Below, one piece after another: positions 1,671 to 24,864 of a DNA stretch of 27,333 bases. Position 1 is the first letter of the stretch. Each line of letters starts with the position of its first letter. The notes below the pieces were generated by a model. The model was not told the DNA's origin. It saw only the letters and a list, made by a program, of their open reading frames with translations, and did not search any database. The translations under genes and the position numbers were made by a program. Origin of the DNA: a virus; the IMG/VR virus record IMGVR_UViG_3300020438_006214, positions 1-27,333 of that record, one strand, 5' to 3'.

Positions 1671-2000
1671 GTGGAAACTGAATTTCTCAAATATTTATCT
1701 CAATACGGTGTACTTGGTTTGTGGACAGCATCCTTGTTGTGGGCGAATCATCAACAAAAGAAAGAACAAAAAGAAGAAAAGCAGAGAGGGGCTAAAGCCT
1801 TGAAATTTCATCAGGAAAAAGTAGTATCTCGTTTAGTAACTCAAGAAAAAATGCTTGAAGTTGCTATGGAAAAAATTGATACTGGATTGCGTGAAATGCG
1901 AAACAAGTATCACGAAGAACGCATGAGCCGTATGCAATCTGCTCGCGCAGATGATTTTGAGGGTGTATTAAAACGCACAATTAAGGAGTTACAGGGATGA
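1671..2000 (+). CDS. Small single-pass membrane protein with coiled coil
   Basis: I place the start at GTG 1671, just downstream of the tmRNA CCA end; a longer frame would begin inside the tmRNA. The product is 109 residues. Residues about 10-26 form one hydrophobic segment (YGVLGLWTASLLWA), followed by a highly charged Lys/Glu-rich helix to the C-terminus with a likely coiled coil. This N-terminal anchor plus coiled-coil build is shared by small phage holin-like and inner-membrane spanin proteins, but no family-specific motif is seen, so a lysis role is only a possibility. No strong Shine-Dalgarno precedes the GTG. The next gene overlaps the stop by 4 nt (ATGA), with an AGGAG at 1984-1988 serving it. 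Confidence 0.65.
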   Translation: METEFLKYLSQYGVLGLWTASLLWANHQQKKEQKEEKQRGAKALKFHQEKVVSRLVTQEKMLEVAMEKIDTGLREMRNKYHEERMSRMQSARADDFEGVLKRTIKELQG

Positions 2001-2428
2001 AATTAATTATTAAGATTGCTAAAGCAATTCAAAAAGTAAAAGGTTTTGTATGTCCTCCAGCAACTAAAGATGTGGCGTTAAACACAAAGAATAGAAATGC
2101 TACTCGTGAAAACCATATGTATGGGCCTCTGAATGTTAATGAGCCAGGTAAGTATTGGCAGAAATTAGCTGGTAAGTGGAACACCACAGAAAAAGCAGCG
2201 AAGAAATCAGTTTGTGGAGTTTGTGTCGCTTTTGATATATCCCCGCAGATGGATGAGTGTATGCCAGGTTCAGTATCTGATGAATCTGGTAGATTAGGAT
2301 ATTGTTGGATGCATCACTTTAAGTGCCATTCAGCACGGTCCTGCGATACTTGGGCGATGGGTGGTCCTATAAAAGATAATAAAAAGTCTTCAGAGTGGAA
2401 TGAGAAGGCATTTGGAGGAAAGAAATGA
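1997..2428 (+). CDS. Cys-rich protein of unknown function
   Basis: 143 residues with seven cysteines: C19, the C73-x2-C76 pair, C88, C103, C110 and C116. Two histidines (106-107) lie between C103 and C110. The spacing suggests a metal or iron-sulfur site. From memory, related proteins with the GYCWMHHF...C...C-x-TW pattern occur in marine phages without assigned function. The GYC segment recalls high-potential iron-sulfur proteins, but the spacing does not fit that signature, so I do not assign it. The first 16 residues are basic and amphipathic. Start and stop are both coupled by 4-nt overlaps to the neighbouring genes. Confidence 0.8.
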   Translation: MKLIIKIAKAIQKVKGFVCPPATKDVALNTKNRNATRENHMYGPLNVNEPGKYWQKLAGKWNTTEKAAKKSVCGVCVAFDISPQMDECMPGSVSDESGRLGYCWMHHFKCHSARSCDTWAMGGPIKDNKKSSEWNEKAFGGKK

Positions 2429-2994
2429 AACTTCTATTTGAAAACTGGCGTAAGTTTATTAAAGAAGAAAAAGAAGATGCATCAGAGAAAGATGTTGAGG
2501 CTGCAGCAAGGGATTTAATTGGCAAAGAAGGTGGTGCGATTGGTCGCTCCATGTTAAAAGACCCAAAAGAACTTAAGCCTTTTTTAGATGAACGAGACGT
2601 GGAGCTTCCGGAAGATTTTGATTTAGATTCTTTTATTGATGAATTTATAAAAGGAAGCCAAGACATCGGTGTACACGATGAGGAGGATATTATCGCTGCT
2701 GACGGAGACGAAATAAAAGTTACAAAAGAGGAAATTGCTGAAGGACTTGAGCTTTTCTTAGAAGATTTAGAAGAGACTCTTGATGAAAAAAGAAAAAAAA
2801 AACGTAAGAAGTCTAAAAAGAAAAAGAAGAAAAAAAAGAAAAGAGATGCTTGCTATCATAAAGTAAAAGCAAGATATGATGTTTGGCCCTCTGCATATGC
2901 TTCTGGGGCACTAGTTAAGTGTAGGAATGTTGGCGCTGCAAACTGGGGAACTGGCGGAAAGAAGAAAAAACGTAAAGCCGCGGCAGAAGAGTAA
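2425..2994 (+). CDS. Leader-tagged basic protein, candidate internal head protein A
   Basis: 189 residues. The N-terminus MKLLFENWRKFIKE resembles the capsid-targeting propeptides of T4 internal proteins (MKTYQEFI-x-E type), which the prohead protease gp21 cuts after (Leu/Ile)-x-Glu; Ile-Lys-Glu at 12-14 fits. An acidic helical middle (15-120) is followed by an extreme Lys run (121-140). A C-terminal motif follows, with Cys143, a VWPSAYASG segment and Cys166, then GAANWG and more lysines. From memory this last motif recurs in marine phage proteins of unknown function. The leader recurs in the 48-residue gene at 4083. The AGGAGG-containing sequence before ATG 2425 is a strong ribosome-binding site. 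Internal head protein is an inference; DNA binding by the tail is plausible from charge alone. Confidence 0.75.
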   Translation: MKLLFENWRKFIKEEKEDASEKDVEAAARDLIGKEGGAIGRSMLKDPKELKPFLDERDVELPEDFDLDSFIDEFIKGSQDIGVHDEEDIIAADGDEIKVTKEEIAEGLELFLEDLEETLDEKRKKKRKKSKKKKKKKKKRDACYHKVKARYDVWPSAYASGALVKCRNVGAANWGTGGKKKKRKAAAEE

Positions 2995-2999
2995 GACAT

Positions 3000-3515
3000 A
3001 TGAAAATAACCAAATCACAACTGAAACAGATCATCCAAGAAGAAATTGAAAATGTTTTAAAAGAAGCTGGAAAATGTCAAAAAGGTTATAAGACACATAA
3101 AACACGAAAAACTAAAAAAATGTATGGTAAAACATATAGAAATTGTGTGAAAGCCGAGGAAAAAGAATTATCTGATGAAAGTATTTTAATTGACGAAGAT
3201 GAAATGGAGGAGAATCTGCGAGATTGGTTTGGCAAGTCCAGTGGAAAAACAAAATCTGGTCGCAGAGTAAAAGGCTGGCAGCAAGTTGGCGGTAAATATG
3301 ATGGTGCACCTTGCGCTAAACAACCCGGACAAAAGACAAAGCCAAAATGTGTTTCTTCTGCAAAAAGAAGAAGTATGTCCAAGAAAGAAAGAGAGTCTGC
3401 CGCAAGAAGAAAAAGAAGAAAAGATCCTAATCCGAACAGAAGAGGGAGGCCGAAAAACGTTTCCACCGATCCAAAAAGAAAAAGCAAAAAAAGAAAAAGG
3501 AAAAGCAAAAAATGA
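3000..3515 (+). CDS. Leader-tagged very basic protein, candidate internal head protein B
   Basis: 171 residues. The first 15 residues (MKITKSQLKQIIQEE) are identical to those of the next gene. Possible (Leu/Ile)-x-Glu cleavage sites are Ile-Gln-Glu at 12-14 and Leu-Lys-Glu at 20-22, the latter followed by Ala-Gly. A small Cys-containing basic region (25-50) and an acidic patch (53-72) precede a segment with LRDWFGKSSGK, then paired cysteines C105 and C117. The end is an Arg/Lys-dominated tail (122-171). The DWFGKS...PC...KC part recalls DUF5872-like segments of marine phage proteins, from memory and tentatively. Its stop overlaps the next start by 4 nt. The overall charge suggests nucleic-acid binding; capsid targeting is inferred from the leader. 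Confidence 0.75.
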   Translation: MKITKSQLKQIIQEEIENVLKEAGKCQKGYKTHKTRKTKKMYGKTYRNCVKAEEKELSDESILIDEDEMEENLRDWFGKSSGKTKSGRRVKGWQQVGGKYDGAPCAKQPGQKTKPKCVSSAKRRSMSKKERESAARRKRRKDPNPNRRGRPKNVSTDPKRKSKKRKRKSKK

Positions 3516-4081
3516 AAATCACAAAATCACAACTTAAACAAATTATTCAAGAAGAATTAGAAGCAGTGATACAAGAAGATGGTCATGAGGATGTACCATC
3601 TGCGCGGCGGGCAATGCAGATAATCATTGAAGATGCTGGTCAAATGCTTGAGAAGCTTGATCAAATGGATGGTAGCTTGCCTACTTGGTGGACAAATAAG
3701 ATGGCTGTTGCCTCTTCTATGTTAAATAAAATGAGAGATTATCTACTCGTTGATGGTGACGCTCCGGAAGAGATGATCAAAGAAGACTTGGAAGAAGAAA
3801 AGGCTTATTATGAAATGCTGTCCGAGGGCGAGACCATTGAAGAGGCTATGTATAGAGGCCGCAAAGTTAAATTAAATAAGCCAATGCGTGGTGATGTTAA
3901 AAAGTCCAAGGTCTATGTTAAAAATGCTAAGGGTAATGTTGTTAAAGTTAACTTTGGTGATAAGAAAATGAAAATCAAAAAGAACATTCCAGGACGACGT
4001 AAATCTTTTAGAGCCAGGCACAAATGCAAAACACCTGGACCAAAATGGAAAGCAAGATACTGGTCTTGCAAAGCTTGGTAA
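3512..4081 (+). CDS. Leader-tagged protein with RRKSFRARH motif, candidate internal head protein C
   Basis: 189 residues. The leader MKITKSQLKQIIQEE (1-15) matches the preceding gene exactly in protein but differs at six synonymous codon positions, so the peptide itself is conserved. Candidate (Leu/Ile)-x-Glu cleavage sites lie at 12-14 and at 20-22 (Ile-Gln-Glu). A helical acidic middle (25-112) is followed by a basic domain with LNKPMRGDVKK (121-131), a VYVKNAKGNVVKVNFGD segment (134-150), and the terminal RRKSFRARH...C...ARYWSCKAW (162-189). From memory this last block is widespread in T4-like marine phage proteins. The function is not established, though a head or core protein role fits. 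The next gene begins 2 nt after the stop. Confidence 0.8.
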   Translation: MKITKSQLKQIIQEELEAVIQEDGHEDVPSARRAMQIIIEDAGQMLEKLDQMDGSLPTWWTNKMAVASSMLNKMRDYLLVDGDAPEEMIKEDLEEEKAYYEMLSEGETIEEAMYRGRKVKLNKPMRGDVKKSKVYVKNAKGNVVKVNFGDKKMKIKKNIPGRRKSFRARHKCKTPGPKWKARYWSCKAW

Positions 4082-4082
4082 T

Positions 4083-4229
4083 ATGAACAAACTATTTGAA
4101 AACTGGCGTAAATATATTAATGAGCAAACTTATATTATTAATAATGCTGTGGATCATGAGTCTAACTTCTATGAATCTATGGAAGAGGATGAAGAATTAA
4201 CTGAAGAAGATACTTTAGAAGAACAATGA
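4083..4229 (+). CDS. 48-residue leader-tagged acidic peptide
   Basis: A short gene of 48 codons plus TGA, starting 2 nt after the previous stop. Its N-terminus MNKLFENWRKYINEQ parallels residues 1-15 of the gene at 2425 (LFENWRK identical, then aromatic-Ile-x-Glu), again with an Ile-x-Glu site at 12-14. The remainder is strongly acidic (Glu/Asp-rich from residue 34). The upstream end of the previous gene gives no strong Shine-Dalgarno, so translational coupling is likely. The leader similarity argues that this is a real gene and not chance. The acidic body contrasts with the basic tails of the three genes before it. Confidence 0.65.
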   Translation: MNKLFENWRKYINEQTYIINNAVDHESNFYESMEEDEELTEEDTLEEQ

Positions 4230-5077: not shown

Positions 5078-5476
5078 ATGAAGTTATGGTCTATTTTTAC
5101 AATCGCAGTAGTGATTGGTTATTTTGGAGTCAGCACTATGTTAACAGCTTGTGGTGATGATTGTGAGACAGAAACTGAGACACCGGCAGAAACACCGAGT
5201 GAGTCAGAAGTTGATGATCAAGCTCCAATTGGAGAAGAGAATGTCACCGTTGGTGATGTTGAAGTGAGTGAAGAGCTGGATGTTCCTGCGGGAGAGGAAA
5301 ACGTACCTACTGAGGATGCACAAGAAGCAGATCCAGAGGATGCTGCAACTCCTGTAGATCCTGAAGAGGAAGATGTCCCCGAGGAAGATCCCGAGGTTGA
5401 TGAGGAGGAAGATACTCCTGAAGAGGATCCTGAGACCGAAGAGACTGAAACTGAAGATGAAGAGGGAGGTGACTAA
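5078..5476 (+). CDS. Acidic low-complexity lipoprotein
   Basis: 132 residues with AAGGAG before the ATG. Residues 1-24 form a signal peptide (MKLW then a hydrophobic core) ending in the lipobox Leu-Thr-Ala-Cys, with Cys25 as the lipidated residue. After Cys-Gly-Asp-Asp-Cys the mature part is almost entirely Glu, Asp, Pro, Thr and Val, with repeated EEDP/PEED-like units and no foldable domain. It would sit on the periplasmic or outer face of a Gram-negative membrane. Phage lipoproteins include outer-membrane spanins and superinfection-exclusion proteins; neither can be chosen here. It shares its transcript with a 27-residue membrane peptide and ends before a strong terminator. Confidence 0.75.
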   Translation: MKLWSIFTIAVVIGYFGVSTMLTACGDDCETETETPAETPSESEVDDQAPIGEENVTVGDVEVSEELDVPAGEENVPTEDAQEADPEDAATPVDPEEEDVPEEDPEVDEEEDTPEEDPETEETETEDEEGGD

Positions 5477-5477
5477 G

Positions 5478-5561
5478 ATGGAAGTTACATTAGCTGTAGT
5501 TCTTTCTGCTGTCGTAGGATTTGCCACTGGCTATTTCCTCGTTAAAAAGAACGTTCTTTAA
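5478..5561 (+). CDS. 27-residue single-span membrane peptide
   Basis: A micro-gene starting 1 nt after the lipoprotein stop with a strong GGGAGG at 5463-5468. Residues 3-20 are a continuous hydrophobic helix with small residues (a GFATGY segment), and the end is basic (KKNVL), predicting a cytoplasmic C-terminus. The good ribosome-binding site, the placement and the terminator just after it argue for expression. Function is unknown; a partner of the lipoprotein is possible. Confidence 0.6.
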   Translation: MEVTLAVVLSAVVGFATGYFLVKKNVL

Positions 5562-5624: not shown

Positions 5625-6329
5625 TTAACGTAGGAAATTCCAAAGTGTTGTATAAGTTGGAGACACAGCAATATGATGAAATTTTCCGTGTACAGAATGG
5701 ATCATTCCAATTAACTCACCTTCAGAGTTGAGGATAGGGGAACCTGAAGACCCTTGCGTAGTTGGTATTGTATAATACGCACTTAAATCTATATTATCAG
5801 AATAGTGACCTTCAAATAGAAGCACCATCTCCTCATGAGATATACCTAACGGAGAAGCTATATTATACACCTTATCAGCATATACGGGTTTTTTAGTTGA
5901 CATCTTAAGCGGAGGCCCAGATATATCTTTACTATATAATAGACAGATGTCTGATGCGAGATCTACTTTTACTACCGTTCCTTCTGTTTCTTTATTGTCC
6001 CGGTCAGATAAAACAAATCTAATTTCATGACCGGGTATTTCTTTTGGGCCAAAGATATGACCGTTAGAATTACAGACGTGCGCAGCAGTTAAAATAAAAT
6101 ATTTATTTTTTACTTGAACAATTGCTCCGGATGCTGTAGCATATGGTATAATGCTTTGTGGAAACAAGCAACTGGACTGCGCGCACTCCTCATCAATCAA
6201 CATCACATCAACTCTTATGAAGGATTTTTTTGCTGTTGTGAGTTTCTTATTGACCTGTGTATTGAGCCCACAACTAATTAATAATGTGGCCACTAACAGT
6301 AAAACGGCGAGGATTTTAATTCGGACCAT
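5625..6329 (-). CDS. Lipoprotein trypsin-like serine protease
   Basis: 234 residues. The signal peptide ends in the lipobox Leu-Ile-Ser-Cys (Cys20), so the protein should be a membrane-anchored periplasmic or outer-membrane lipoprotein. A trypsin-fold (S1/HtrA-like) domain follows with all three catalytic residues: His84 in TAAHVC, Asp127 in DLASDICLL, and Ser195 in TTQGSSGSP. There is no PDZ domain. It is the only minus-strand gene in the window, convergent with the lipoprotein unit and divergent from phoH; the two gene starts are about 31 nt apart. Trypsin-like proteases are known in some marine phages. Possible roles, such as processing a surface protein or lysis, are inference. Start ATG at 6329. 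Confidence 0.85.
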   Translation of the reverse strand: MVRIKILAVLLLVATLLISCGLNTQVNKKLTTAKKSFIRVDVMLIDEECAQSSCLFPQSIIPYATASGAIVQVKNKYFILTAAHVCNSNGHIFGPKEIPGHEIRFVLSDRDNKETEGTVVKVDLASDICLLYSKDISGPPLKMSTKKPVYADKVYNIASPLGISHEEMVLLFEGHYSDNIDLSAYYTIPTTQGSSGSPILNSEGELIGMIHSVHGKFHHIAVSPTYTTLWNFLR

Positions 6330-9750: not shown

Positions 9751-11004
9751 ATGAAAGAAAAACTTAAGGTATTGGTTTTAGCAGATCATCCGTATTCACC
9801 ATCTGGTGTGGGGACCCAAACACGATTTATGATTGAGCACCTCTTGGGAACAGGCGACTATTCATTTATTTGTTTTGGCGGCGCTGTCAAACATGAGGAT
9901 TATAAGCCTCAGAAATTTGAACAGTGGGGTGACGATTTAGTAGTATATCCTGTTGATGGATATGGTACGCAAGAGATGATTCGCTCTATTATTAGAACTG
10001 AGCGCCCGGATATTTTATGGTTTATGACAGATCCAAGATTTTATCCATGGTTATGGGAGATCGAAGATGAAATTCGTTCGTTAATTCCCATGGTTTATTA
10101 TCATGTGTGGGACAACAAGCCGTATCCACATTATAATAAAATTTGGTATGATTCAACTGATCTTGTTGTTGCTATATCAAAAGTTACACGAGAAGTTGTT
10201 GAAAACGTAGCACCTGATGTTGAAGTAGTTTATCACCCGCATGCAGTCGATCCGGAATTTTATAAACCTTTAACAGAAGAAGAGAAAACAGAATTGCGCA
10301 AAAAATCTAACATTGCAGAAGATAAATTCGTTGTTTTTTGGAATAGTAGAAACGCCCGGAGAAAACAATCAGCAACGCTAATTCACTGGTTTAAAGAATT
10401 TTTGGATAAAGTAGGTCATGACAAGGCTCAATTAATTATGCACACTGAACCTTCTGACCCTAATGGGCCGAATTTAGTTGCTAACATTAATATGTTGGGA
10501 CTTACAAACGGAGAAGTCCAGTTTTCTACACAAAAATTAGATTTTCCGGAATTAGCGGCATTATATAATATTGCAGATGTAACTGTTTGTATATCAGATG
10601 CAGAAGGGTTTGGGTTATCAACCTTAGAATCACTATCTTGTGGGACACCTATTATTGTTAATATGACAGGTGGTCTACAAGAACAAGTAACTGACGGGGA
10701 AAATTGGTTCGGAGTCGGGATTGAGCCATGTTCAAAAGCAGTTATAGGATCACAGGAAATTCCCTATATTTATGAAGATAGAATCAATAAAGATGATTTT
10801 ATTAATGCATTATTTAAATTATACGAGACAGATAAAGAAATGCGCAAAAAAGTTGGCCTCTCCGGTCGCGACCATGTACATAAAAATTATAATTTTAAAA
10901 ACTATGGACAAAAATGGGATAAAATTTTAAAAGATGTACATAAAAAACATGGTTCTTGGGAGACTCGTAAAAATATTAAGACATGGGAGTTATTAGAGGT
11001 TTAA
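9751..11004 (+). CDS. GT4-family glycosyltransferase
   Basis: 417 residues, GT-B fold. The N-terminal domain begins with a strand and the SGVGTQTRF glycine loop (about 17-25). The C-terminal domain carries the GT4 E-x7-E signature, Glu285 to Glu293 in EGFGLSTLE, followed by SCGTPIIV. It is retaining and would use a nucleotide sugar, but the donor cannot be told. No membrane segment. It opens the glycan block; the next glycosyltransferase starts 1 nt after its stop. Confidence 0.88.
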   Translation: MKEKLKVLVLADHPYSPSGVGTQTRFMIEHLLGTGDYSFICFGGAVKHEDYKPQKFEQWGDDLVVYPVDGYGTQEMIRSIIRTERPDILWFMTDPRFYPWLWEIEDEIRSLIPMVYYHVWDNKPYPHYNKIWYDSTDLVVAISKVTREVVENVAPDVEVVYHPHAVDPEFYKPLTEEEKTELRKKSNIAEDKFVVFWNSRNARRKQSATLIHWFKEFLDKVGHDKAQLIMHTEPSDPNGPNLVANINMLGLTNGEVQFSTQKLDFPELAALYNIADVTVCISDAEGFGLSTLESLSCGTPIIVNMTGGLQEQVTDGENWFGVGIEPCSKAVIGSQEIPYIYEDRINKDDFINALFKLYETDKEMRKKVGLSGRDHVHKNYNFKNYGQKWDKILKDVHKKHGSWETRKNIKTWELLEV

Positions 11005-11005
11005 T

Positions 11006-12271
11006 ATGAAGAAAATTTTACTCAAGGGGCCCGTGCTCACACAATCCGGATACGGACATCATGCAAGAACCGTCCTGCGTGCACTACGCACGAGAGAGGA
11101 CTTATTTGACATTTATATACAGCCAATTACCTGGGGTCACACAAGTTGGATGTGGGAAGATAATGAGGAGAGGAAATATATTGATAGTCTCTTGGAAAAA
11201 ACTATCAAATATGTTTCAGAAAAAGGAGCATTTGACATTTCTCTACAAGTTTCAATTCCTAACGAATGGGAGAAGATTGCACCTGTTAATATAGGTGTTA
11301 CTGCTGGTATTGAAACTACTAAAGTATCTCCAAAATGGATTGAAAAGTCTTATCTAATGGATAAGATTCTCACTATTAGTGAACACTCAAAGTGGTCATA
11401 TGAAAATACAAAAGTTGAGGCCATCAATCAGCAAACTGGGGAGCAGTTTACTGTTGGCCCAAAAGAAAATTCAATTGACTATATTTCTTACCCAGTTCGA
11501 GTTTTCGATCCGGTAGAGGTTGATTTAAAGCTTGAAACTGATTTTAATTTTTTGGCAGTTTCTCAATTAAGTCCGCGTAAAAATGTTGATCAATTAATTA
11601 AATGCTTTGTAGAGAAGTTTGGAGATGATGAGAATGTAGGCTTAATTATTAAGGCTAATATGGCTAAAAATTCATTAATCGACAGAAAACATACATTAGC
11701 TGGTTTTAAGAGAGCTTTAGAACAATTTAAGGATAGGAAGTGTAAAATCTACCTTTTACATGGATATTTGAACGACAATGAGATGGCTGGTTTATATACT
11801 CACTCAAAAATTAAAGCGCTTATATCTGCGACTCATGGAGAAGGTTTCGGTTTACCAATTTTTGAAGCAGCATATTATGGCCTTCCTGTAATAGCGACAG
11901 ATTGGTCTGGTCATTTAGATTTTCTCTACAAGCCGACGAAACAAAAAAATGGCAAAGTTAAAAAGAAGCATATGTTTTCGAGAATTAGTTATACTCTCAC
12001 TCCTGTACAAGGGGCGGTTGTGTGGGACGGTGTAATAGAAAAAGACTCTATGTGGGCTTATCCAGAGGAGGGTTCAATTAAGATGAATCTTGAAGAAATG
12101 TATAAAGACCACGGCCGATTTAAGAAAAGAGCAAAAGAATTACAAAAATGGGTGTGTGAAGAATTTACAGAAGATAAAATATATTCCAAATATGTAGAGA
12201 GAATTGTTTCGAAAGAAGAGATAGAATTAACCCAACAGATCCAAGAAATGTTTAAAGAGTTAAATGTTTAA
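11006..12271 (+). CDS. GT4-family glycosyltransferase
   Basis: 421 residues, GT-B fold. The N-terminal glycine loop TQSGYGHHAR (about 12-21) and the C-terminal HGEGFGLPIFE (Glu279, Glu287) with GLPVIATDWSGHLDF mark a GT4 transferase. Residues 315-325 hold a Lys-rich insertion between the donor site and the last helices. The pair with the preceding gene has the same fold but low obvious identity, so this is not a recent duplication. It is followed 2 nt later by a third transferase-like gene. Confidence 0.88.
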   Translation: MKKILLKGPVLTQSGYGHHARTVLRALRTREDLFDIYIQPITWGHTSWMWEDNEERKYIDSLLEKTIKYVSEKGAFDISLQVSIPNEWEKIAPVNIGVTAGIETTKVSPKWIEKSYLMDKILTISEHSKWSYENTKVEAINQQTGEQFTVGPKENSIDYISYPVRVFDPVEVDLKLETDFNFLAVSQLSPRKNVDQLIKCFVEKFGDDENVGLIIKANMAKNSLIDRKHTLAGFKRALEQFKDRKCKIYLLHGYLNDNEMAGLYTHSKIKALISATHGEGFGLPIFEAAYYGLPVIATDWSGHLDFLYKPTKQKNGKVKKKHMFSRISYTLTPVQGAVVWDGVIEKDSMWAYPEEGSIKMNLEEMYKDHGRFKKRAKELQKWVCEEFTEDKIYSKYVERIVSKEEIELTQQIQEMFKELNV

Positions 12272-12273
12272 AT

Positions 12274-13107
12274 ATGTTTTTTGTTTCGGACGTTTTTGTT
12301 GATAAATATATCGGTGGCGCAGAGCTTACGTCTGAAGCCATTATAAGTTCTGCGCCTTGTAGTATCCAAAAAATTGAGAGTTCTGCTTTAACAATTGATA
12401 TTTTAAAAGCGAATAGAGATAAATATTGGGTTTTTGGCAATTTCTCTGCAGTAGCCCCTGACGTATTAATTTATGCTGCAAAAAATATAAATTATTCTAT
12501 TATAGAATATGATTACAAATACTGTAAATATAGATCTCCGGATAAACATATCTTTTTTGAACAAAAGTGTGATTGCCAACATCAAATTACTGGAAAGACA
12601 GTTTCTGTATTTTTTGCTAAATCAAGATCTTTATGGTTCATGTCTGAGGCTCAAAAGCAATTTTATGAGGAAAAATTTGCTTTTTTAAAAACTCACCCGT
12701 CTTATGTATTAAGTTCAGTTTTTAACGCCAAAACATTAAATTTAATAAAAGATATGAGAGTAGAAAAAAAAGATGAGTGGCTTATTGTTGATAATGGATC
12801 TTGGATTAAGGGAGCGCCAGATGCCATAACTTACGCCAAAGAAAATAATTTAAAATATATTTTAGCACAGAATTATACGTATAAAAAAATGTTGAAAACT
12901 TTAGCTTCCTGTAAAGGATTAATATTCTTACCCCGGGGCATGGATACATGCCCGAGATTAGTGATTGAAGCAAAATTATTGGACTGTGAACTTATAATTA
13001 ATGAAAAGGTCCAGCACGCAACAGAAGAATGGTTTGCAGATAAACAAAGTATTTTGAGTTATTTGGAGACTAGAGCAGATTTTTTCTGGAATAAAATTAT
13101 AAAATAG
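12274..13107 (+). CDS. Glycosyltransferase-like protein (GT-B type, divergent)
   Basis: 277 residues. The early IGGAELTSEAII segment (13-24) matches the acceptor-side glycine loop of GT4-like enzymes. A late segment with FLPRGMDTCPRLVIEAKLL fits the donor-binding Glu region, with Glu in the expected place. The intervening part is shorter than in typical GT4 proteins (about 380 residues), and CDCQHQ forms a small Cys/His cluster near residue 99. A glycosyltransferase role is inferred from these two motifs and from location. Start ATG lies 2 nt after the upstream stop. Confidence 0.65.
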   Translation: MFFVSDVFVDKYIGGAELTSEAIISSAPCSIQKIESSALTIDILKANRDKYWVFGNFSAVAPDVLIYAAKNINYSIIEYDYKYCKYRSPDKHIFFEQKCDCQHQITGKTVSVFFAKSRSLWFMSEAQKQFYEEKFAFLKTHPSYVLSSVFNAKTLNLIKDMRVEKKDEWLIVDNGSWIKGAPDAITYAKENNLKYILAQNYTYKKMLKTLASCKGLIFLPRGMDTCPRLVIEAKLLDCELIINEKVQHATEEWFADKQSILSYLETRADFFWNKIIK

Positions 13108-13116
13108 AAGATATAT

Positions 13117-14073
13117 ATGTGTAGGTTTTTGATTACTGGTGGTGCCGGCTTCGTCGGCCGTAATTTAACTAATTATTTATTAAGAGAAACAGATTACAAT
13201 ATAGTTTCTATGCACCGCCCTACTATTTCGAAAAGAATCAACGACCAACACCACCATAACCCTAGGGTTAAAGTTATCTATCACGACCTTATAAAACCAA
13301 TTAATAATAAGATTTCACAAGAAATTGGCAATATTGATCATATAGTGCACTTAGCTGGATTAACTCAAATAAGCAAAAGTGTTGAAGACCCAATTAATTT
13401 TATAAATAATAACGTAATAGGTACGGCCAACTTATTAGAATATGCCACCACAGTCAAAAATAACCATGGGTTAAAGAAGTTCCTGTATTTGAGTACTGCC
13501 GAGGTCTTCGGCCCATCACCCCGCGGCCTGATTTTTCAAGAGACCAGTCCATATAATCCCTGCAGTCCATATGCCGCAACCAAAATAGCAGCTCAAGAGC
13601 TTTGCATGACCTACTTAAACACACACAACATTCCATCAATAATAGCATATTCGATGAACACCTTTGGGCCATACCAAAACCAACAAAAATTTATACCTTT
13701 ACTTATTCAAAAAATTTCTAAAGAAGAAAGGGTTTCAATTAATTTAGATTGTGAGGGTGCGGCTCCGAGTAGAAGAAATTATTTACATGTCGACGACCTG
13801 TGTGATGCAATCTTATATTTGATCAAAAATGGAATACCAGGAGAAAAATACACTATTGCTGCAGACGAAGAGAGTAATAATTTAGAAATAGCTAAGAAAA
13901 TTTCGAACATTTTAGGAAAGAAAATAAATTATAATTTAACCAAAAAAGAAAAGAATTCTCTATCACTTCCACATCTGAGCGGTAAAAAGTTGCGTGATTT
14001 GGGGTGGTCTCCCAAGAGAGACTTAGAGTCTGGCTTAAAAGAAATGGTAGAATGGATGCTCAAAGGAGTATAA
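13117..14073 (+). CDS. NAD-dependent nucleotide-sugar epimerase/dehydratase (extended SDR)
   Basis: 318 residues. The Rossmann NAD site is GGAGFVG (8-14). The catalytic pair is Tyr152-x3-Lys156 in SPYAATK, with STAEVFG supplying the Ser/Thr. FGPY and RRNYLHVDDL in the C-terminal half are typical of the UDP-glucose 4-epimerase and dTDP-glucose dehydratase branches. The AEVFG in place of the DEVYG found in RmlB argues against a dehydratase of that type, so an epimerase is more likely. The substrate is not determined. It stands between two transferase genes. Confidence 0.82.
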   Translation: MCRFLITGGAGFVGRNLTNYLLRETDYNIVSMHRPTISKRINDQHHHNPRVKVIYHDLIKPINNKISQEIGNIDHIVHLAGLTQISKSVEDPINFINNNVIGTANLLEYATTVKNNHGLKKFLYLSTAEVFGPSPRGLIFQETSPYNPCSPYAATKIAAQELCMTYLNTHNIPSIIAYSMNTFGPYQNQQKFIPLLIQKISKEERVSINLDCEGAAPSRRNYLHVDDLCDAILYLIKNGIPGEKYTIAADEESNNLEIAKKISNILGKKINYNLTKKEKNSLSLPHLSGKKLRDLGWSPKRDLESGLKEMVEWMLKGV

Positions 14074-14077
14074 GTAT

Positions 14078-14839
14078 ATGGGCTTGGATATAGATAATCA
14101 CTTTAAAATAGTAATACCTTCTTACAATAATGAAAAGTGGATACAGATGTGCGTGAAAAGTGTGAAATTACAGAATTATGAAAATTATCAATGTATTATT
14201 GTTGATGACAACTCATCTGATAGAAGCGTAGATATTATAAAAAAAGAAATAGAAGGAAATGACAAATTTATTCTCATAGAAAATACTGAGCGTAAACTAG
14301 CGTTGAGGAATATCTATGAGTCAGTTGAATTGTCTAAGCCGGCGGATGAGGATGTTATAATAACACTAGATGGAGATGACTGGCTGGCCACCAAATCGAC
14401 GTTACAGAGATTAAATAAAAAATATATAGAATCGTCATGTTGGCTAACCTATGGTAGTTACATAGAATACCCCTCCCAAAGGCCCGGAAAATTTTCGAAA
14501 CAAATACCAAAAGAAATAATAGAATCCAATACTTATAGAGATTCCGAATGGATGAGTTCCCACATGAGGACTTTTAAATATAAGTTATGGAAGAGAATTA
14601 AGAAAGAAGATTTTTTAGAGGAAGACGGTCGCTTTTGTGATGGAGCTTGGGATATGGTGTTTATGTTTCCTATGTTAGAAATGGCTGGCCCAAGAAGTGC
14701 TTTTATTAAGGATTATTTATATGTCTATAATAGACAAAATCCTTTAAACGAAGATAAGATAAATCACAGAAAAATAATTGAATCAGAAATGAGGATAAGG
14801 AAAATGCCTAAATATAAGGAAGTTAGTGATGTTGACTAG
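14078..14839 (+). CDS. GT2-family glycosyltransferase
   Basis: 253 residues, GT-A fold. KIVIPSYNNEKW (about 9-20), VDDNSSD (nucleotide-binding Asp pair, about 42-48) and LDGDDW (metal-binding DxD, about 98-103) are the standard GT2 motifs. The C-terminal part has GAWDMVFMFPMLE, which fits the acceptor/base region. It is soluble with no membrane helices. The stop overlaps the following fucosyltransferase gene by 11 nt. Confidence 0.87.
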   Translation: MGLDIDNHFKIVIPSYNNEKWIQMCVKSVKLQNYENYQCIIVDDNSSDRSVDIIKKEIEGNDKFILIENTERKLALRNIYESVELSKPADEDVIITLDGDDWLATKSTLQRLNKKYIESSCWLTYGSYIEYPSQRPGKFSKQIPKEIIESNTYRDSEWMSSHMRTFKYKLWKRIKKEDFLEEDGRFCDGAWDMVFMFPMLEMAGPRSAFIKDYLYVYNRQNPLNEDKINHRKIIESEMRIRKMPKYKEVSDVD

Positions 14840-15611
14840 CTTTCTTCAAGGCGGCTTGGGGAATCAATTATTTCAAATCGCCGCGACTTTAGCTGTGAGT
14901 GTAGAGTCAGGGCACGCTGTTGTGTTCAACACTGCAAATCACGACTTACCAAAGCAAGGCCGGCCATGCGAAAAATATATAAAAACAATTTTTCGAAATC
15001 TTAATTTTTCTTCCGAGGCTGCCGTTTCAACTGACCACCTCTATCATGAGCCATATTTTCATTATAAAAAAATACCTCCTTTATCTGGCAATACATGTTT
15101 AATTGGATACTTTCAGTCAGAAAGATATTTCGAAAAATATTCAAGTTATATCCGTAAAGTTTTTTCTATTGATGAGATTACTAAAAAAAAGATTAATGAA
15201 AAATACAGCGAAGTCTTGGTAAAAAATCCAATAGCTATTCATGTTAGAAGAGGCGATTATCTTCAATTTAGTGATACCCACCCACCCTGTAAGATGGAAT
15301 ATTATATGGCCGCGATTAAAGAATTTCCTGACAATTCGAATTTTTTAGTATTTAGCGACGATATTGCATGGTGCAAAGAAAAGTTTGTTGGCCGAGAATA
15401 TATTTTTTCAGAGAATAATGAGGACTTAGTCGATTTTTACTTAATTTCTTTATGCAGTGGTGCTATAATATCAAACAGTAGTTTTAGTTGGTGGGCGTCT
15501 TGGTTGGGCGAAACTAATAATAAAAAAATAATTGCTCCGAAAAATTGGTTTGGAGAAAGTGTAAAATTTGATACAAGAGATTTATTACCCTCTCGATGGA
15601 AAATAATTTGA
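14829..15611 (+). CDS. GT11-family alpha-1,2-fucosyltransferase
   Basis: 260 residues from ATG 14829, served by AAGGA about 9 nt upstream; a GTG one codon earlier is possible. GT11 motifs in order: GGLGNQLFQ (8-16), HVRRGDY at 138-144 (the GDP-fucose-binding HxRRxD site), and SNSSFSWWASWLG (about 216-228). The family transfers fucose from GDP-fucose in alpha-1,2 linkage. GDP-fucose synthesis is encoded at the end of the same block (24865 and 25788), which supports the assignment. The end overlaps the next gene by 16 nt. Confidence 0.88.
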   Translation: MLTSFLQGGLGNQLFQIAATLAVSVESGHAVVFNTANHDLPKQGRPCEKYIKTIFRNLNFSSEAAVSTDHLYHEPYFHYKKIPPLSGNTCLIGYFQSERYFEKYSSYIRKVFSIDEITKKKINEKYSEVLVKNPIAIHVRRGDYLQFSDTHPPCKMEYYMAAIKEFPDNSNFLVFSDDIAWCKEKFVGREYIFSENNEDLVDFYLISLCSGAIISNSSFSWWASWLGETNNKKIIAPKNWFGESVKFDTRDLLPSRWKII

Positions 15612-16936
15612 TTGATAATGAATTAGAACAAATATTGACTTTAGTCGATAAATATATCAAGAATAAGGAAGCACAAAAAACTTGGACGGCTGGCAAGGAT
15701 TGGGTTTATTATGCTGGTCCTTATTTTAATAGTGACGAATACATTGGCGGAATAAAATCTTTTTTGAAAGGATGGCTTGCACTCGGCGCCGATGGGGCAC
15801 GCTTCGAAAAGAAATTATCCAAATATTTTGGGAAGAATTATGGTCTTTTAACCAACAGTGGATCCAGCGCAAACCTTCTCATGATGGCTGCGCTTAAGTC
15901 AAAAAGACTTCATAATTTTCCCAGAGGTACCAAAGTCCTAACCCCTATTGCAGGTTTCCCCACTACAATTAATCCAATCTTTCAGGTGGGTTTCGAGCCG
16001 GTTTTCGTAGATATTGAGTTACCAACATTAAACATAGATCTTGAGAAAGCAGAAGCTGCTCTTCAAAAACACGACATTAAAATTATAACGTTTGCTCATG
16101 TTTTAGGAAACCCTCCAAATATGGACAAGGTAATGGAGTTGGTCAAAAAGTATAATCTAATTTTGTTAGAGGATTGCTGCGATGCTCTGGCTGGTACATA
16201 CGACGGAAAATATCTTGGTTCATTCGGTGATATGGCCAGCTGTTCATTTTATCCGGCTCATCATATTACAACGGGAGAGGGCGGCTTTGTGGCTATTAAG
16301 GATAAGGATCAAGAACAAGTGGTAAGGAGTTTCAGAGACTGGGGTCGTGGTTGTTATTGTGTTGGCGAAAAAGCTAGTATATCCGCATGCGGGGCATGCG
16401 GCAAAAGGTTTTCTTGCTGGCTCAAATCAATGCCGGAAAAGGTTTTTGATCATAAGTATGTTTATGAAGAGATTGGTTATAATTTAAAACCAATGGAGAT
16501 GCAGGCTGCGATCGGCCTGGCTCAAATGAAAAAGATTGAAGAAATTAAAGCCTTACGCAATAAAAACTTCAATAGTTTGTATAGTGTTTTTAAGAAGTAT
16601 GAAGAATATTTTCATCTACCTGAAGCAACCGCTAAAGCAGACCCTAACTGGTTTGCCTTTTTGTTGACTATAAGAGATGGTTGTCCGTTCACCAGAGAAG
16701 AAATTACGACATTTCTAGAGTCTAAAAAGATCCAAACCAGAACTTATTTTGCTGGGAATATTATGTTACAACCTGCATATGATCATTTAGTAGACACTGA
16801 GAAAATTATTCGAGATTATCCTGTTGCTGGGAAAGCTACAACCGATGCTTTTTTTCTTGGAACCGCGCCGTCAATAACAGAAGATAAGATTGAATATATT
16901 AGAAATATGGTCGACCTTTTCATGGAGGGTCAATAA
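15596..16936 (+). CDS. rfbH: RfbH-type PMP-dependent sugar 3-dehydrase
   Basis: 446 residues of the DegT/DnrJ/EryC1 aspartate-aminotransferase fold. The lysine that normally binds the cofactor is replaced by His222 in FYPAHHITTGEGG, as in CDP-4-keto-6-deoxyglucose 3-dehydrase (E1), which makes 3,6-dideoxy sugars. Cys195-x57-Cys253-x-Cys255 matches the E1 iron-sulfur ligand spacing. The fourth ligand would be Cys265 (x9, where E1 has x7) or a nearby Cys such as C268. DHKYVYEEIGYN further fits RfbH. Its usual partners (CDP-glucose synthesis RfbF/RfbG, reductase RfbI) are not in the window, so the substrate is uncertain. The start overlaps the fucosyltransferase end; the stop overlaps the next start by 1 nt. 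Confidence 0.85.
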   Translation: MENNLIDNELEQILTLVDKYIKNKEAQKTWTAGKDWVYYAGPYFNSDEYIGGIKSFLKGWLALGADGARFEKKLSKYFGKNYGLLTNSGSSANLLMMAALKSKRLHNFPRGTKVLTPIAGFPTTINPIFQVGFEPVFVDIELPTLNIDLEKAEAALQKHDIKIITFAHVLGNPPNMDKVMELVKKYNLILLEDCCDALAGTYDGKYLGSFGDMASCSFYPAHHITTGEGGFVAIKDKDQEQVVRSFRDWGRGCYCVGEKASISACGACGKRFSCWLKSMPEKVFDHKYVYEEIGYNLKPMEMQAAIGLAQMKKIEEIKALRNKNFNSLYSVFKKYEEYFHLPEATAKADPNWFAFLLTIRDGCPFTREEITTFLESKKIQTRTYFAGNIMLQPAYDHLVDTEKIIRDYPVAGKATTDAFFLGTAPSITEDKIEYIRNMVDLFMEGQ

Positions 16937-17622
16937 TGATTTCGATAGCCATACCAGCATACGAATCTCACGGAAGGTCGGAGGAATTTTCGCGTTTTCA
17001 GTTTGAAATATTTTTACAGCAAACATATAAAAATTTTGAAATAGTAATATCAGATCACAGCAGAGATGATGTGATTAAGAACATATGCGCGGAATACAAA
17101 GATAGACTAAATATTCGGTATGTCCGAAATGAATTTGGACGTGGACTATCTTCGTATAACATTAATAATGCCATGAAACATTGCTCTGGTGAAATAATCA
17201 AATTTTTGTGGTTTGATGACTTCTTGTGGAATGAGCACAGCCTGCAGCATATTGTCAAAGCTTTTGATTCTGACACAAATTGGCTTGTCAGCGCTTGTGA
17301 ACATACGAGAGACGACGGCAGGACATTTTATCGAACGTTTTATCCCAGATATCATGATAAAATTTATTTGGGAAACAATACAATTAGTAGCCCTAGCGTG
17401 TTAACAATACGAAACATAAATGATAAAATATATTTCGATGATCGGTTAATTTGGCTGATGGACGTTGATTATTATAAAAGACTATTTGATAAATATGGTG
17501 CCCCAAAGATTTTAAATAAAATCACAGTGGTCAATCGCGATCACGAACACCAATTATCACATGTGATGGATCCTAAAATTAAAGAAAAAGAATATAATAT
17601 GATGCTCGCAAAACATGCATAA
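16936..17622 (+). CDS. GT2-family glycosyltransferase
   Basis: 228 residues, GT-A fold. SIAIPAYESHGR (3-14) and the strand-Asp motif IVISDHSRDD (about 36-45) form the nucleotide-binding half. FLWFDDF (about 90-96) is the DxD-equivalent, here Phe-Asp-Asp. LMDVDYYKRL fits the acceptor region. The protein is short compared with typical 250-300-residue members, lacking a C-terminal extension. The start is in TAATG overlap with the 3-dehydrase stop. Confidence 0.82.
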   Translation: MISIAIPAYESHGRSEEFSRFQFEIFLQQTYKNFEIVISDHSRDDVIKNICAEYKDRLNIRYVRNEFGRGLSSYNINNAMKHCSGEIIKFLWFDDFLWNEHSLQHIVKAFDSDTNWLVSACEHTRDDGRTFYRTFYPRYHDKIYLGNNTISSPSVLTIRNINDKIYFDDRLIWLMDVDYYKRLFDKYGAPKILNKITVVNRDHEHQLSHVMDPKIKEKEYNMMLAKHA

Positions 17623-17639
17623 CAAGAGGAAATAAAAGC

Positions 17640-18365
17640 ATGGACAAAATTAAACTAAATAATATAACATTGCTAGCGCTAGGTTCTACTCAAATTGAGG
17701 AAAATTTAATGGCGCTGAAATATAGTACTAAAAATATTGATTTTGGAGCCGTAAAATTTATTTCGCACGAACGACCCGAAAACCTGTCGGAGAACATCCA
17801 GTTTGAAAAATTTAAAGATTTTGAAAACATCTCCTATAAAGAGTTTAGCTATTATTGTATTTATAAATTAATAGAACATGTGGAAACTGACTTTATGCTC
17901 ATGATTCATCCTGACGGGTTTGTTATCAACCCAGAATCATGGACTGATGAGTTTTTAGAGTGGGATTATCTCGGTGCACCATGGCCTATTCGGGACGATG
18001 CCTATATCGATCCATTTGGAAACCATCATAGGGTTGGGAACGGTGGCTTTACTCTGAGGAGTAGGAAGGTGCTGGAGGTGCCTCATATAGAAGAAATACC
18101 TTTTGAAGTAAACCGGGGAACATTTTATAAACACATGAACGCAGGAGCCTATAATGAAGATGGAAATATTTGCGTGCATAATAGACATTTATTTGAAAAA
18201 CATGGTGTTAAATTTGCTCCCGTAGAGGTAGCTGCTTTGTTTTCTCATGAAATACCAACACCAGAGACAAAATTAGTAAAGAAGCCTTTTGGTTTTCACA
18301 GATATTTACCAGGAACTTATCCGCAAAGATTTAATTTTAAAAGGCACAATAATGAAAATAAATGA
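17640..18365 (+). CDS. DUF5672-like putative glycosyltransferase
   Basis: 241 residues. The core has FMLMIHPDGFVINP (about 80-93), WDYLGAPWP, GNGGFTLRSRK and later VEVAALFSHE and FGFH, which together match my memory of the DUF5672 family found in glycan-synthesis clusters. HPDG may take the place of the metal-binding DxD of GT-A enzymes. Enzyme activity is inferred. A GAGGA precedes the ATG. The stop lies 14 nt inside the next gene. Confidence 0.75.
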   Translation: MDKIKLNNITLLALGSTQIEENLMALKYSTKNIDFGAVKFISHERPENLSENIQFEKFKDFENISYKEFSYYCIYKLIEHVETDFMLMIHPDGFVINPESWTDEFLEWDYLGAPWPIRDDAYIDPFGNHHRVGNGGFTLRSRKVLEVPHIEEIPFEVNRGTFYKHMNAGAYNEDGNICVHNRHLFEKHGVKFAPVEVAALFSHEIPTPETKLVKKPFGFHRYLPGTYPQRFNFKRHNNENK

Positions 18366-19158
18366 TAGTATAGGAATTATCGGAAATGGTTTTGTCGGAA
18401 ATGCAGTCCACGAAGGTCTCAAAAACCACTTCAATTTATTTATATATGATATCGAGCTATCTAAAAAAATAAACACTCTTACTGAGGTAGACAAAGCAGA
18501 AATTATCTTCTTGTGTGTACCAACACCAACGAACACAGATGGTAGCTTTGTTTTGTCTTTTTTACTTGACTCTATTGGTAATCTATCACCTGGTAAAATA
18601 TTAATAATAAAATCTACAATTCCGCCAAGCTATGCCGAATATCTAATAGAAAAGTTTCCAAAACAAGAACTGGTATTTAATCCTGAATTTTTAACTGAAA
18701 GAACAGCAGTTGGTGATTTTCAAAATCCATCACGAATTGTACTGGGCGGCAAAGATAAATATTCAGTAGAAAGAGTAGAAAAAATCTACAGAAAGGTTTT
18801 TCCTTCTCCTATGATAGAAATTATTAAAACTGATTATAAGACTGCTTGTTTTATTAAATATTTTTCAAACTGCTTTTTCGCTGCGAAGGTTTCGCTAATG
18901 AATGAATTCAAACAGATTGCCGAAGCATCAGGGGTCCACTGGGAGACAGCTTTAAATGGTCTCTTGACATCAGGCTGGGTAAACCCAATGCACACACTTG
19001 TACCCGGTCCTGATGGTAAATTTGGTTTTGGAGGAAAATGTTTTCCAAAAGATATTTGTGCGTTTATAGCGTATTGCAAAGAAAAAGGCATTGACCCTAC
19101 TGTACTTGAAGCAGCTTGGAAGAAAAATTTAGAAGTTCGCAAGTTGGAGCAAGTATAG
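18352..19158 (+). CDS. Short UDP-glucose/GDP-mannose dehydrogenase family protein
   Basis: 268 residues from ATG 18352 (AAAAGG upstream). The NAD site is IGNGFVGNA (about 10-18). LCVPTPTNTDGS, KSTIPPSYAE and FNPEFLTERTA are family motifs. The catalytic set appears complete: Lys169/Asn173 region, Lys179, Asn184-Glu185, and Cys230 in FGGKCFPKD. The protein stops about 38 residues after the catalytic Cys, whereas family members are about 390-450 residues. The C-terminal nucleotide-binding domain is therefore missing. It may still oxidise UDP-glucose to UDP-glucuronate if another subunit completes the site. The stop overlaps the next GTG start by 1 nt. A short form is not proof of decay: the frame and coupling are intact. 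Confidence 0.82.
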   Translation: MKINDSIGIIGNGFVGNAVHEGLKNHFNLFIYDIELSKKINTLTEVDKAEIIFLCVPTPTNTDGSFVLSFLLDSIGNLSPGKILIIKSTIPPSYAEYLIEKFPKQELVFNPEFLTERTAVGDFQNPSRIVLGGKDKYSVERVEKIYRKVFPSPMIEIIKTDYKTACFIKYFSNCFFAAKVSLMNEFKQIAEASGVHWETALNGLLTSGWVNPMHTLVPGPDGKFGFGGKCFPKDICAFIAYCKEKGIDPTVLEAAWKKNLEVRKLEQV

Positions 19159-19904
19159 TGAGTATTATAAAGAATAATTTTTTAGTTGTAAGCGATTACA
19201 ATTGGCTACCAGACAATCTTGAAGATTCTTGGATTCACAAGTATACTGATAATTATTTAATATATGATAAGTATCATAGAGATAATTGGCAAGAGTCAGA
19301 TAAAATAATAAAACAAAAAAATGTTGGACAAAATCACTATGACATGTTTGATTTTATAGTTACACACTATGATAATTTACCTGATGTTATAATATTTTGT
19401 AGAGCCTGTTTATTTTTTCCCAAAGGAGAGAAGACGAGCCCCACACCAGAAAGATGCGCCTCCACTGGAAACTATAACGAAAACGACTTTCTTAAAAATT
19501 GTAACAACACCACTTTTACAGAGCTACATGATTTTGGACCAGAGGCTCATCAGAGGTATGCTCATCAAGCATGGCCCGCTAGTAAAATGGCGCCAGATGG
19601 TGGTTTTTTAGAGTTAAATAATAGTTGGTATATGAATGAGGGCAAATATAAGTATTTCAATAATCTTAATTCCTTTTTTAAGGATGTGTACAAAAATCCT
19701 ATATTAGAGTCATATGTACGCTTTTCACCGGGCGGAAATTATATAATACCAAAGAAAAATATTTTAAAATATTCTAAAAAATTTTATAGGATAATAAGAG
19801 ATTTTATGAGTCATGATATTATAACTGCGGAAATATGGATGATAGAAAGAGCTACTTATACAATTTTTACATGTGACTGGGAAGTAAACGAGAGATATAA
19901 ATAA
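19158..19904 (+). CDS. DUF3431-like protein, putative glycan enzyme
   Basis: 248 residues from GTG 19158, overlapping the previous TAG by one base; GGAG lies about 9 nt upstream. NFLVVSDYNWLPD near the N-terminus, LPDVIIFCRA (about 79-88), SPGGNYIIPKKNI and AEIWMIERATYTIF near the C-terminus follow the order of motifs in DUF3431, a family linked to surface-sugar loci. The function of that family is unknown and the match is from memory. No membrane helix. 27 nt separate it from the next gene. Confidence 0.6.
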   Translation: MSIIKNNFLVVSDYNWLPDNLEDSWIHKYTDNYLIYDKYHRDNWQESDKIIKQKNVGQNHYDMFDFIVTHYDNLPDVIIFCRACLFFPKGEKTSPTPERCASTGNYNENDFLKNCNNTTFTELHDFGPEAHQRYAHQAWPASKMAPDGGFLELNNSWYMNEGKYKYFNNLNSFFKDVYKNPILESYVRFSPGGNYIIPKKNILKYSKKFYRIIRDFMSHDIITAEIWMIERATYTIFTCDWEVNERYK

Positions 19905-19931
19905 ATGTTTATTGCGATCAGGAGATAAAAG

Positions 19932-20906
19932 ATGAAAAATATATTGATAACAGGCGGATTGGGTTTCTTAGGCTCTTTCTCCATAGAAAAATACAAAAGA
20001 GAGGGCTGGAAAGTAACAATTATAGACAACATGTCAACCAATGTAATAGAGCCAGAGGATAAAATCTGTGAGGATGTTGATGTTATTATTAAAGATGTAT
20101 TGGAGTGCGATTGGGATGATTTAATTAAATTTGATTGTATACTGCATTTAGCCAGCCCAGTAGGTCCTGCAGGAATACTAAAGCACTCTGGTCAAATGGC
20201 AAAGTATATTCTTAAAGATATATATTGGGCGATTGATGGTGCTAGCAAATGTAATTGTCCGTTGATATTTGTTAGCACATCAGAAATATACGGCTACAGA
20301 CAAGAAGCAACTCTATTAAAAGAAGATGATGATAAGCTTTTAGTCGGAGATTTTTCAGTGAGAAACGAATATTCTATGGGCAAACTATTATGTGAAATAG
20401 TGCTCAGCAACACAGCAAAAGTTAGCAATCTAAAGTATCAGATAATTAGACCTTTTAATATTAGCGGAGCCAGACAATTAAAGACAGGAGGGTTTGTGTT
20501 GCCCACATTTGTTACCCAGGCTCTTTCTGAAAGTGATATAACTGTTTTTAATGGTGGACAACAAGTTCGAGCCTTTACTCACGTAATTGATATTGTAGAC
20601 GGTATATATAAAGTATCTTTATCCAACAAAATTAATGAAATATGGAACATTGGAAATTCTGATAATATCTCGACCATCATCAGCATGGCTGAAAAAGTAA
20701 AAAAATATACTGACTCTAATTCAAACATAAAGTTAGTTGATCCAAAAACCATACATGGTGATTTATACGAAGAGGCTTGGGATAAAATTCCTGATGCAAC
20801 GAAAATAAAAAAAGAATTAGGGTGGGCTCCCATGTGGACAACTGATGAGATTATAAAAGACGTTATCTATCACTATTCAAAAAAACAAAACTTGGTGTCA
20901 TCATGA
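19932..20906 (+). CDS. Extended SDR, UDP-xylose-synthase-like
   Basis: 324 residues with AGGAGA before the ATG. The NAD site is GGLGFLG (8-14). HLASPVGP recalls the HLASPASP of UDP-glucuronate decarboxylase (UDP-xylose synthase). STSEIYG and Tyr147-x3-Lys151 (YSMGK) are the catalytic residues. RAFTHVIDIVDG is typical of the C-terminal half. It would use UDP-glucuronate from the dehydrogenase two genes upstream, which supports the decarboxylase reading, but an epimerase is not excluded. The stop overlaps the next ATG by 4 nt. Confidence 0.75.
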   Translation: MKNILITGGLGFLGSFSIEKYKREGWKVTIIDNMSTNVIEPEDKICEDVDVIIKDVLECDWDDLIKFDCILHLASPVGPAGILKHSGQMAKYILKDIYWAIDGASKCNCPLIFVSTSEIYGYRQEATLLKEDDDKLLVGDFSVRNEYSMGKLLCEIVLSNTAKVSNLKYQIIRPFNISGARQLKTGGFVLPTFVTQALSESDITVFNGGQQVRAFTHVIDIVDGIYKVSLSNKINEIWNIGNSDNISTIISMAEKVKKYTDSNSNIKLVDPKTIHGDLYEEAWDKIPDATKIKKELGWAPMWTTDEIIKDVIYHYSKKQNLVSS

Positions 20907-21811: not shown

Positions 21812-21865
21812 TAGACAATATGAGTGTTTTTCAAATGTTTTTTTGATGAGAGAGGGGGTATAAAA

Positions 21866-23260: not shown

Positions 23261-23282
23261 AAAACTATGAAGGAGAAAAGAA

Positions 23283-24859: not shown

Positions 24860-24864
24860 ATAAA

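Follow-up and report, generated by a model that had tools for sequence, protein, structure and literature searches.

Two exchangeable N-terminal leaders in uncultivated marine T4-like phages are likely prohead-targeting propeptides

Two short N-terminal leaders, here called A and B, are found at the start codon (ATG) of hundreds of phage open reading frames (ORFs) that are otherwise unrelated, far above chance, and are exchanged between the proteins that carry them. We consider it likely that they are propeptides that target these proteins to the prohead core and are cleaved there by a homolog of the T4 prohead protease gp21; no virion or cleavage data are available for any of these phages. 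The window analyzed is a stretch of 27,333 nt from an uncultivated marine virus (IMG/VR virus record IMGVR_UViG_3300020438_006214, positions 1 to 27,333). An earlier sequence-only reading of it had proposed capsid-targeting, protease-cleaved leaders and an expandable module for loading proteins into the head. This overall reading is supported here, with packaging, cleavage, and injection remaining inferences.

The window contains four tagged genes, all on the plus strand and all found where that reading had placed them, at 2425-2994, 3000-3515, 3512-4081, and 4083-4229. Gene 2425 starts with a type B leader (2425-2466; MKLLFENWRKFIKE; predicted cut after Glu14), followed by a body whose first half is acidic and whose C-terminal half matches phrog_727 (DACYHKVKARYDVWPSAYASGALVKCR...). 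Genes 3000 and 3512 both carry leader type A (3000-3065, MKITKSQLKQIIQEEIENVLKE, and 3512-3577, MKITKSQLKQIIQEELEAVIQE), each with candidate cuts after Glu14 and Glu22; the body of the former is very basic (net +34) and also falls in phrog_727, and that of the latter combines an acidic N half with a basic C-terminal domain assigned to phrog_7595. Gene 4083 encodes an acidic protein of 48 aa behind leader type B (4083-4124; MNKLFENWRKYINE; predicted cut after Glu14). Both PHROGs families are of unknown function, and a Pfam search with the four bodies gave no convincing match. The encoded proteins measure 48-189 aa, with one or two domains each.

The individual claims made for these genes held. 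Genes 3000 and 3512 share residues 1-15 (MKITKSQLKQIIQEE), encoded with exactly six synonymous and zero amino acid differences, an outcome expected by chance with P ~5e-5 given ~8 synonymous and ~34 nonsynonymous sites. LFENWRK-[F/Y]-I-x-E is common to genes 2425 (MKLLFENWRKFIKEE) and 4083 (MNKLFENWRKYINEQ), and [I/L]-x-E is present in all four leaders, occurring twice in the type A pair (IQE at residues 12-14 in both, then LKE or IQE at 20-22). Three of the four bodies were said to have basic tails and the fourth to be acidic, and we observe net charges over the last 60 residues of +17 (gene 2425), +26 (gene 3000), and +21 (gene 3512), with gene 4083 at -12 overall. No T4 late promoter (TATAAATA) was found upstream of the cassette, only TATAAATT at 1186 and 4780. 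A cyanophage S-E7 homolog (T4 GC0119) of genes 2425 and 3000 bears the name "structural protein," which we rejected as proof of virion location because T4-GC119 is called hypothetical in PMC3037559.

Degenerate DNA patterns for leader A and for leader B each found abundant matches in IMG/VR. The DNA fetched contains at least 461 distinct tagged ORFs (312 A and 149 B), whose bodies, once the leader is removed, form 317 clusters, 257 of them singletons and the largest with 31 members. For both leader types, alignments of cluster representatives display a leader consensus followed by unconserved columns. An identical short N-terminal sequence on unrelated bodies is one criterion for a T4-type capsid-targeting sequence, and it is met by these 461 ORFs and 317 clusters; the leaders are real protein-level signals and are widespread. 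The expandability that had been proposed is likewise supported, with a profile search of 29 long records finding maxima of 28 type A copies in one record (G002, 242 kb) and 14 type B copies in another (G018, 102 kb).

The leaders are also modular and exchanged between bodies, the window's own genes included. Eleven body matches cross the two leader types. The body of gene 3000 is found behind leader B in two other records (L215, 87% over 31 aa; L225, 44% over 84 aa), and the gene 2425 homolog in the most syntenic record (L402, in G015) bears a type A leader (MQITKEILQELIKEE), not type B. Homology between leaders A and B themselves was considered and rejected, as the two are not alignable. Searching phage isolates with the bare leaders by tblastn gave nothing useful (the query was short, the database 2.3 Gb, and low-complexity filtering active), and a profile search of four isolates gave two type A matches in a Flavobacterium phage and no leader in HTVC008M, C48C1, or P-RSM6. 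No match to the exact leader B pattern was found in 84,980 bacterial and archaeal genomes, so that it offers no clue to the host. In the literature searched, we found no paper on the leader strings or on such leaders in marine phages.

T4 gp21 cleaves after L/I-X-E (PMC9026906), and by this rule the leaders meet a further criterion for T4-type capsid-targeting sequences, namely, that they end in the gp21 motif. The end of the leaders behaves as a selected motif and not as an inherited one. In leader B copies picked on their first residues only, conservation ends at Glu14 (hydrophobic-x-Glu). Among 46 leader B copies outside the fetch pattern, 21 have a different spacing, and 17 of these regain [L/I]-x-E within a few residues (for example, RKYLLTE, RKFALLTE, and RNNILNE) against a background of 9.1% (P ~9e-15, with copies treated as independent). 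Leader A shows a second [L/I]-x-E peak from residues 19-20, the motif starting at residues 17-24 in 50% of copies versus 2-13% in later windows. The residue following the putative cut (P1') in leader B is often E or D, not only a small residue as at T4 sites; major capsid proteins (MCPs) in tag-bearing genomes retain a T4-type site, LL[RK]E with Ser or Ala as the next residue. The proposal that [I/L]-x-E represents the gp21 site is supported by a motif that behaves as selected, with cleavage itself inferred in the absence of virion data.

The sequence-only reading was to be refuted if the genome had no prohead protease. None was found in the 27-kb window, and neither were any head genes, but this refutation could not be met in a fragment of that size; the T4-like module (gp21, gp23, gp20, and terminase) is absent from the fragment but found in its relatives. 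A 106-kb record (G015), collinear with the window from gene 2425 to the glycosyltransferase at 9751 except for the place of the gene 1997 homolog, encodes an S77/gp21 protease at 102325-102768 (E 5.5e-32) and yields a partial gp23 match. Another record (L311) contains gp21, gp23, portal, and terminase, all confirmed by PHROGs. Across 50 tag-bearing records of >=70 kb, a Peptidase_S77 match is present in 36, including all those >123 kb, and gp23 in 32. At >=100 kb, a gp21-type protease is found in 30 of 32 tag-bearing records; gp23 is likewise missing from the two without it (112 and 123 kb), which are likely fragments. A control set consisted of 33 records fetched via the bodies of genes 3512 and 1997, not via the leaders. 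With both sets considered at >=100 kb, gp21 is present in 33 and missing from 2 leader-positive records, versus 2 and 13 leader-negative records, respectively (Fisher P 3e-8). This association may partly reflect shared ancestry, since leaders and gp21 are both markers of a single T4-like clade and the copies cannot be counted as independent.

Tagged genes are also found beside the protease gene itself. In 20 head modules inspected by eye and by profile, terminase comes first, followed by the portal, small genes, and gp21; after a variable slot come a conserved gene that begins MKKSELKKLIKPLxKECIxEVLxEEG, further genes, a probable scaffold, and gp23. In 11 of the 20 modules by eye, and in 6 by strict profile matches, the slot directly after gp21 is occupied by a tagged or tag-like gene, and 6 or more would be expected with P ~9e-4, assuming a roughly estimated rate of 6% per slot. 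Aligning leader A with the conserved post-gp21 gene (hhalign) gives a marginal match, with a probability of 44% over only 9 columns. In one record (L305), the gene directly after gp21 has the leader MDTWKEFLTEA, which looks intermediate between leader B and T4 MKTYQEFIAEA.

Most tagged bodies have no match in Pfam or PHROGs, and those that do are diverse. In 69 B-tagged representatives, Pfam recognizes protein kinase, thioredoxin, PGDYG, HD, RNase_T, NUDIX, and amidase domains, as well as DnaJ, nucleotidyltransferase, HAD, and 5'-nucleotidase domains. The 80 A-tagged bodies searched are mostly unknown, with GNAT, LysM, and DUF6321 among them, and PHROGs agree with Pfam on the cargo of both leader types. 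The matched cargo appears to fit injected effectors better than structural parts, an inference from sequence alone.

The neighboring gene at 1997-2428 (plus strand) has no leader in the window. Since homologs in other records carry leader B (for example, L396, MKKLFENFRNFINEVEKLVCPPATQ, 78% identity), it is possibly a cargo whose tag was lost or not yet gained. The gene is Cys-rich, and relatives in phage records bear the name high-potential iron-sulfur protein; its homologs occur alone, behind leader B, or fused within large cytidylyltransferase-like proteins. In other T4-like contigs, the domains of genes 1997 and 3512 are fused in one such protein, whose N terminus, MKKFSELIEA, also resembles the T4 leader. 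A putative cytidylyltransferase, T4-GC190, has been detected in S-SM1 virions (PMC3037559), and we infer that it is the same protein as this fusion. The domain at the C terminus of gene 3512 occurs very widely (at least about 600 pattern matches), and in many gp21-less records (L316-L395) it is preceded by an N-terminal MPIPKP...RCM domain and no leader.

We propose that each leader would act as a short, probably helical N-terminal address that docks the newly made protein onto the prohead scaffold core. A gp21-type S77 protease would then cleave the leader just past its [I/L]-x-E, in type B following residue 14 and in type A following residue 14, residue 21-22, or both, freeing the body inside the head during maturation. 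The bodies, several of which have a lysine/arginine-rich end suited to lying on DNA, would be packaged alongside the genome and, at infection, probably pass into the host. Being modular, the address could be placed on any gene, and arrays of tagged genes could expand, be reshuffled, and exchange leaders. Core binding, cleavage, packaging, and injection are all inferred and directly untested, cleavage and packaging because there are no virion data and no head genes in the window; for injection of the cargo into the host, we see only slightly more reason to accept it than to doubt it. Helical-moment calculations give a helix-like maximum for leader B and a weak one for leader A, for which reason we do not firmly claim an amphipathic helix. 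The receptor of the leaders is unidentified: A and B cannot be aligned with each other, the match of A to a head-module gene is marginal, and homology to the T4 leader is not demonstrated.

Several other explanations can be weighed against this one. The leaders may dock to the prohead core while the bodies serve head assembly, as scaffold accessory or DNA-condensing proteins with no role in the host cell. This remains possible: the basic tails are DNA-binding-like, tagged genes lie beside gp21 within the head module, and T4 IPIII affects head morphogenesis (PMC9026906). However, 317 body clusters represent far more diversity than a structural role would allow, and some B-tagged bodies match enzymes such as kinases, NUDIX, thioredoxin, amidase, DnaJ, and 5'-nucleotidase. 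It is unlikely that the leaders direct proteins to some other site (the tail or baseplate, the membrane, or a compartment resembling a phage nucleus) and remain uncut by gp21. Leaders A and B are indeed unlike the T4 leader in sequence and have no known receptor, but the I/L-x-E end and its return after indels point to the prohead, as do the S77 protease present in nearly all long tagged records and the adjacency to the protease gene.

Two further explanations both appear very unlikely. If the shared 5' ends were recombination or regulatory elements acting at the DNA level, protein identity would be a by-product, and the swapping of bodies in tandem, overlapping tagged arrays is what a recombination site at the gene start would produce. 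Against this, every one of the six codon differences between the window's leader A copies is synonymous, a mean of 2.8 codons differ synonymously in 39 same-locus pairs whose 15-aa leaders are identical, and indels in leader B restore the amino acid motif. Ordinary duplication, in which tagged genes are diverged paralogs keeping only their N terminus, can point to bodies that are related within one cluster (31 members in the largest), but more than one Pfam fold is represented among the bodies, and one and the same body can be found behind either leader.

The preferred reading, a cleaved prohead address, follows a principle already known from T4, that of a targeting leader cut by gp21. T4 internal proteins (IPs) share a capsid-targeting sequence (CTS) of 10-19 residues and little else and are injected, with Ip1-Ip3 inhibiting type IV restriction enzymes (PMC9026906, PMC12373910, PMC3012670), and the targeting sequence has been suggested to be a general means of loading varied proteins (PMC9026906). 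Like the CTS of IPI, IPII, and IPIII, the window leaders are short N-terminal sequences with an [L/I]-x-E end on otherwise unrelated proteins, and the two systems are also alike in their basic cargo, variable loci, and gp21-type protease, the last being found for the leaders in related genomes. IPII and IPIII start with MKTYQEFIAEA; by eye, leader B ends similarly in [F/Y]-[I/L]-x-E, and leader A shares only hydrophobic-x-E. The likeness of the type B pair to T4 internal-protein leaders that had been noted is one of logic and motif, and homology of the leaders cannot be demonstrated. In contrast to T4, there are two leader families, MKITKxQLKQIIKEE... (A) and MKLLFENWRK[Y/F]hxE (B), and a marine record can contain as many as 28 type A or 14 type B copies, compared with three IPs. 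The marine cargo also includes enzyme-like proteins of up to several hundred residues, and cleavage of its leaders is undemonstrated.

T4 Alt, a packaged and injected ADP-ribosyltransferase, and Ip1-Ip3 provide the same functional model of processed head proteins delivered with the DNA (PMC9026906, PMC12373910), though the window bodies are not recognizable homologs of them. Packaged and injected multienzyme cargo has also been predicted for polyvalent proteins, which phages and conjugative elements encode (Iyer et al. 2017, PMC5512222), and the 1997/3512 domain fusion is a point in common. The window genes do not meet the polyvalent criterion of several effector domains per polypeptide; they only share domains, which here make up separate short proteins that each bear an address leader of their own. 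In a different phage group, phiKZ/SPN3US, head propeptides are removed after a Glu by gp21-related proteases (PMC9026906).

What is new here are two further leader families, their scale in uncultivated marine phages, the enzyme-like cargo, and leader exchange. Knowledge of phage-injected proteins usually comes from mass spectrometry of individual phages. If the tags are addresses, a simple N-terminal profile would predict the packaged cargo of uncultivated marine phages from DNA, and hundreds of unknown small proteins would become candidate host takeover or antidefense factors. There would then be two packaging signals independent of T4's, effectors would be seen to be recruited by adding a tag of 14-22 residues, and the cargo delivered by noncoliphage T4-like phages would be directly testable. 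A bolder reading, on which the evidence leaves us evenly divided as a whole, is that T4-related marine phages load many proteins, enzymes included, into the prohead via two swappable tags, making the injected proteome of uncultivated phages readable from sequence, and that leader A was perhaps copied from the N terminus of the conserved post-gp21 protein, so that the tag is a mimic. This mimicry is a lead only, because the hhalign match is so short and its probability so low.

Finally, we note some other features of the window. A large glycan cluster at 9751-26780 comprises glycosyltransferases, a DegT-type aminotransferase, and a dTDP-sugar epimerase, along with several NAD-dependent epimerases and fucosyltransferase-like proteins recognized by sequence inspection. 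The only large minus-strand gene in its part of the window, at 5625-6329, combines a lipoprotein-like signal with a trypsin-like serine protease domain (Trypsin_2, E 1.9e-15). An acidic, repeat-rich, lipoprotein-like ORF at 5078-5476 is overlapped in another frame by a 62-aa ORF at 5373-5561 that ends in a membrane segment, and the two are possibly a lysis-related pair.
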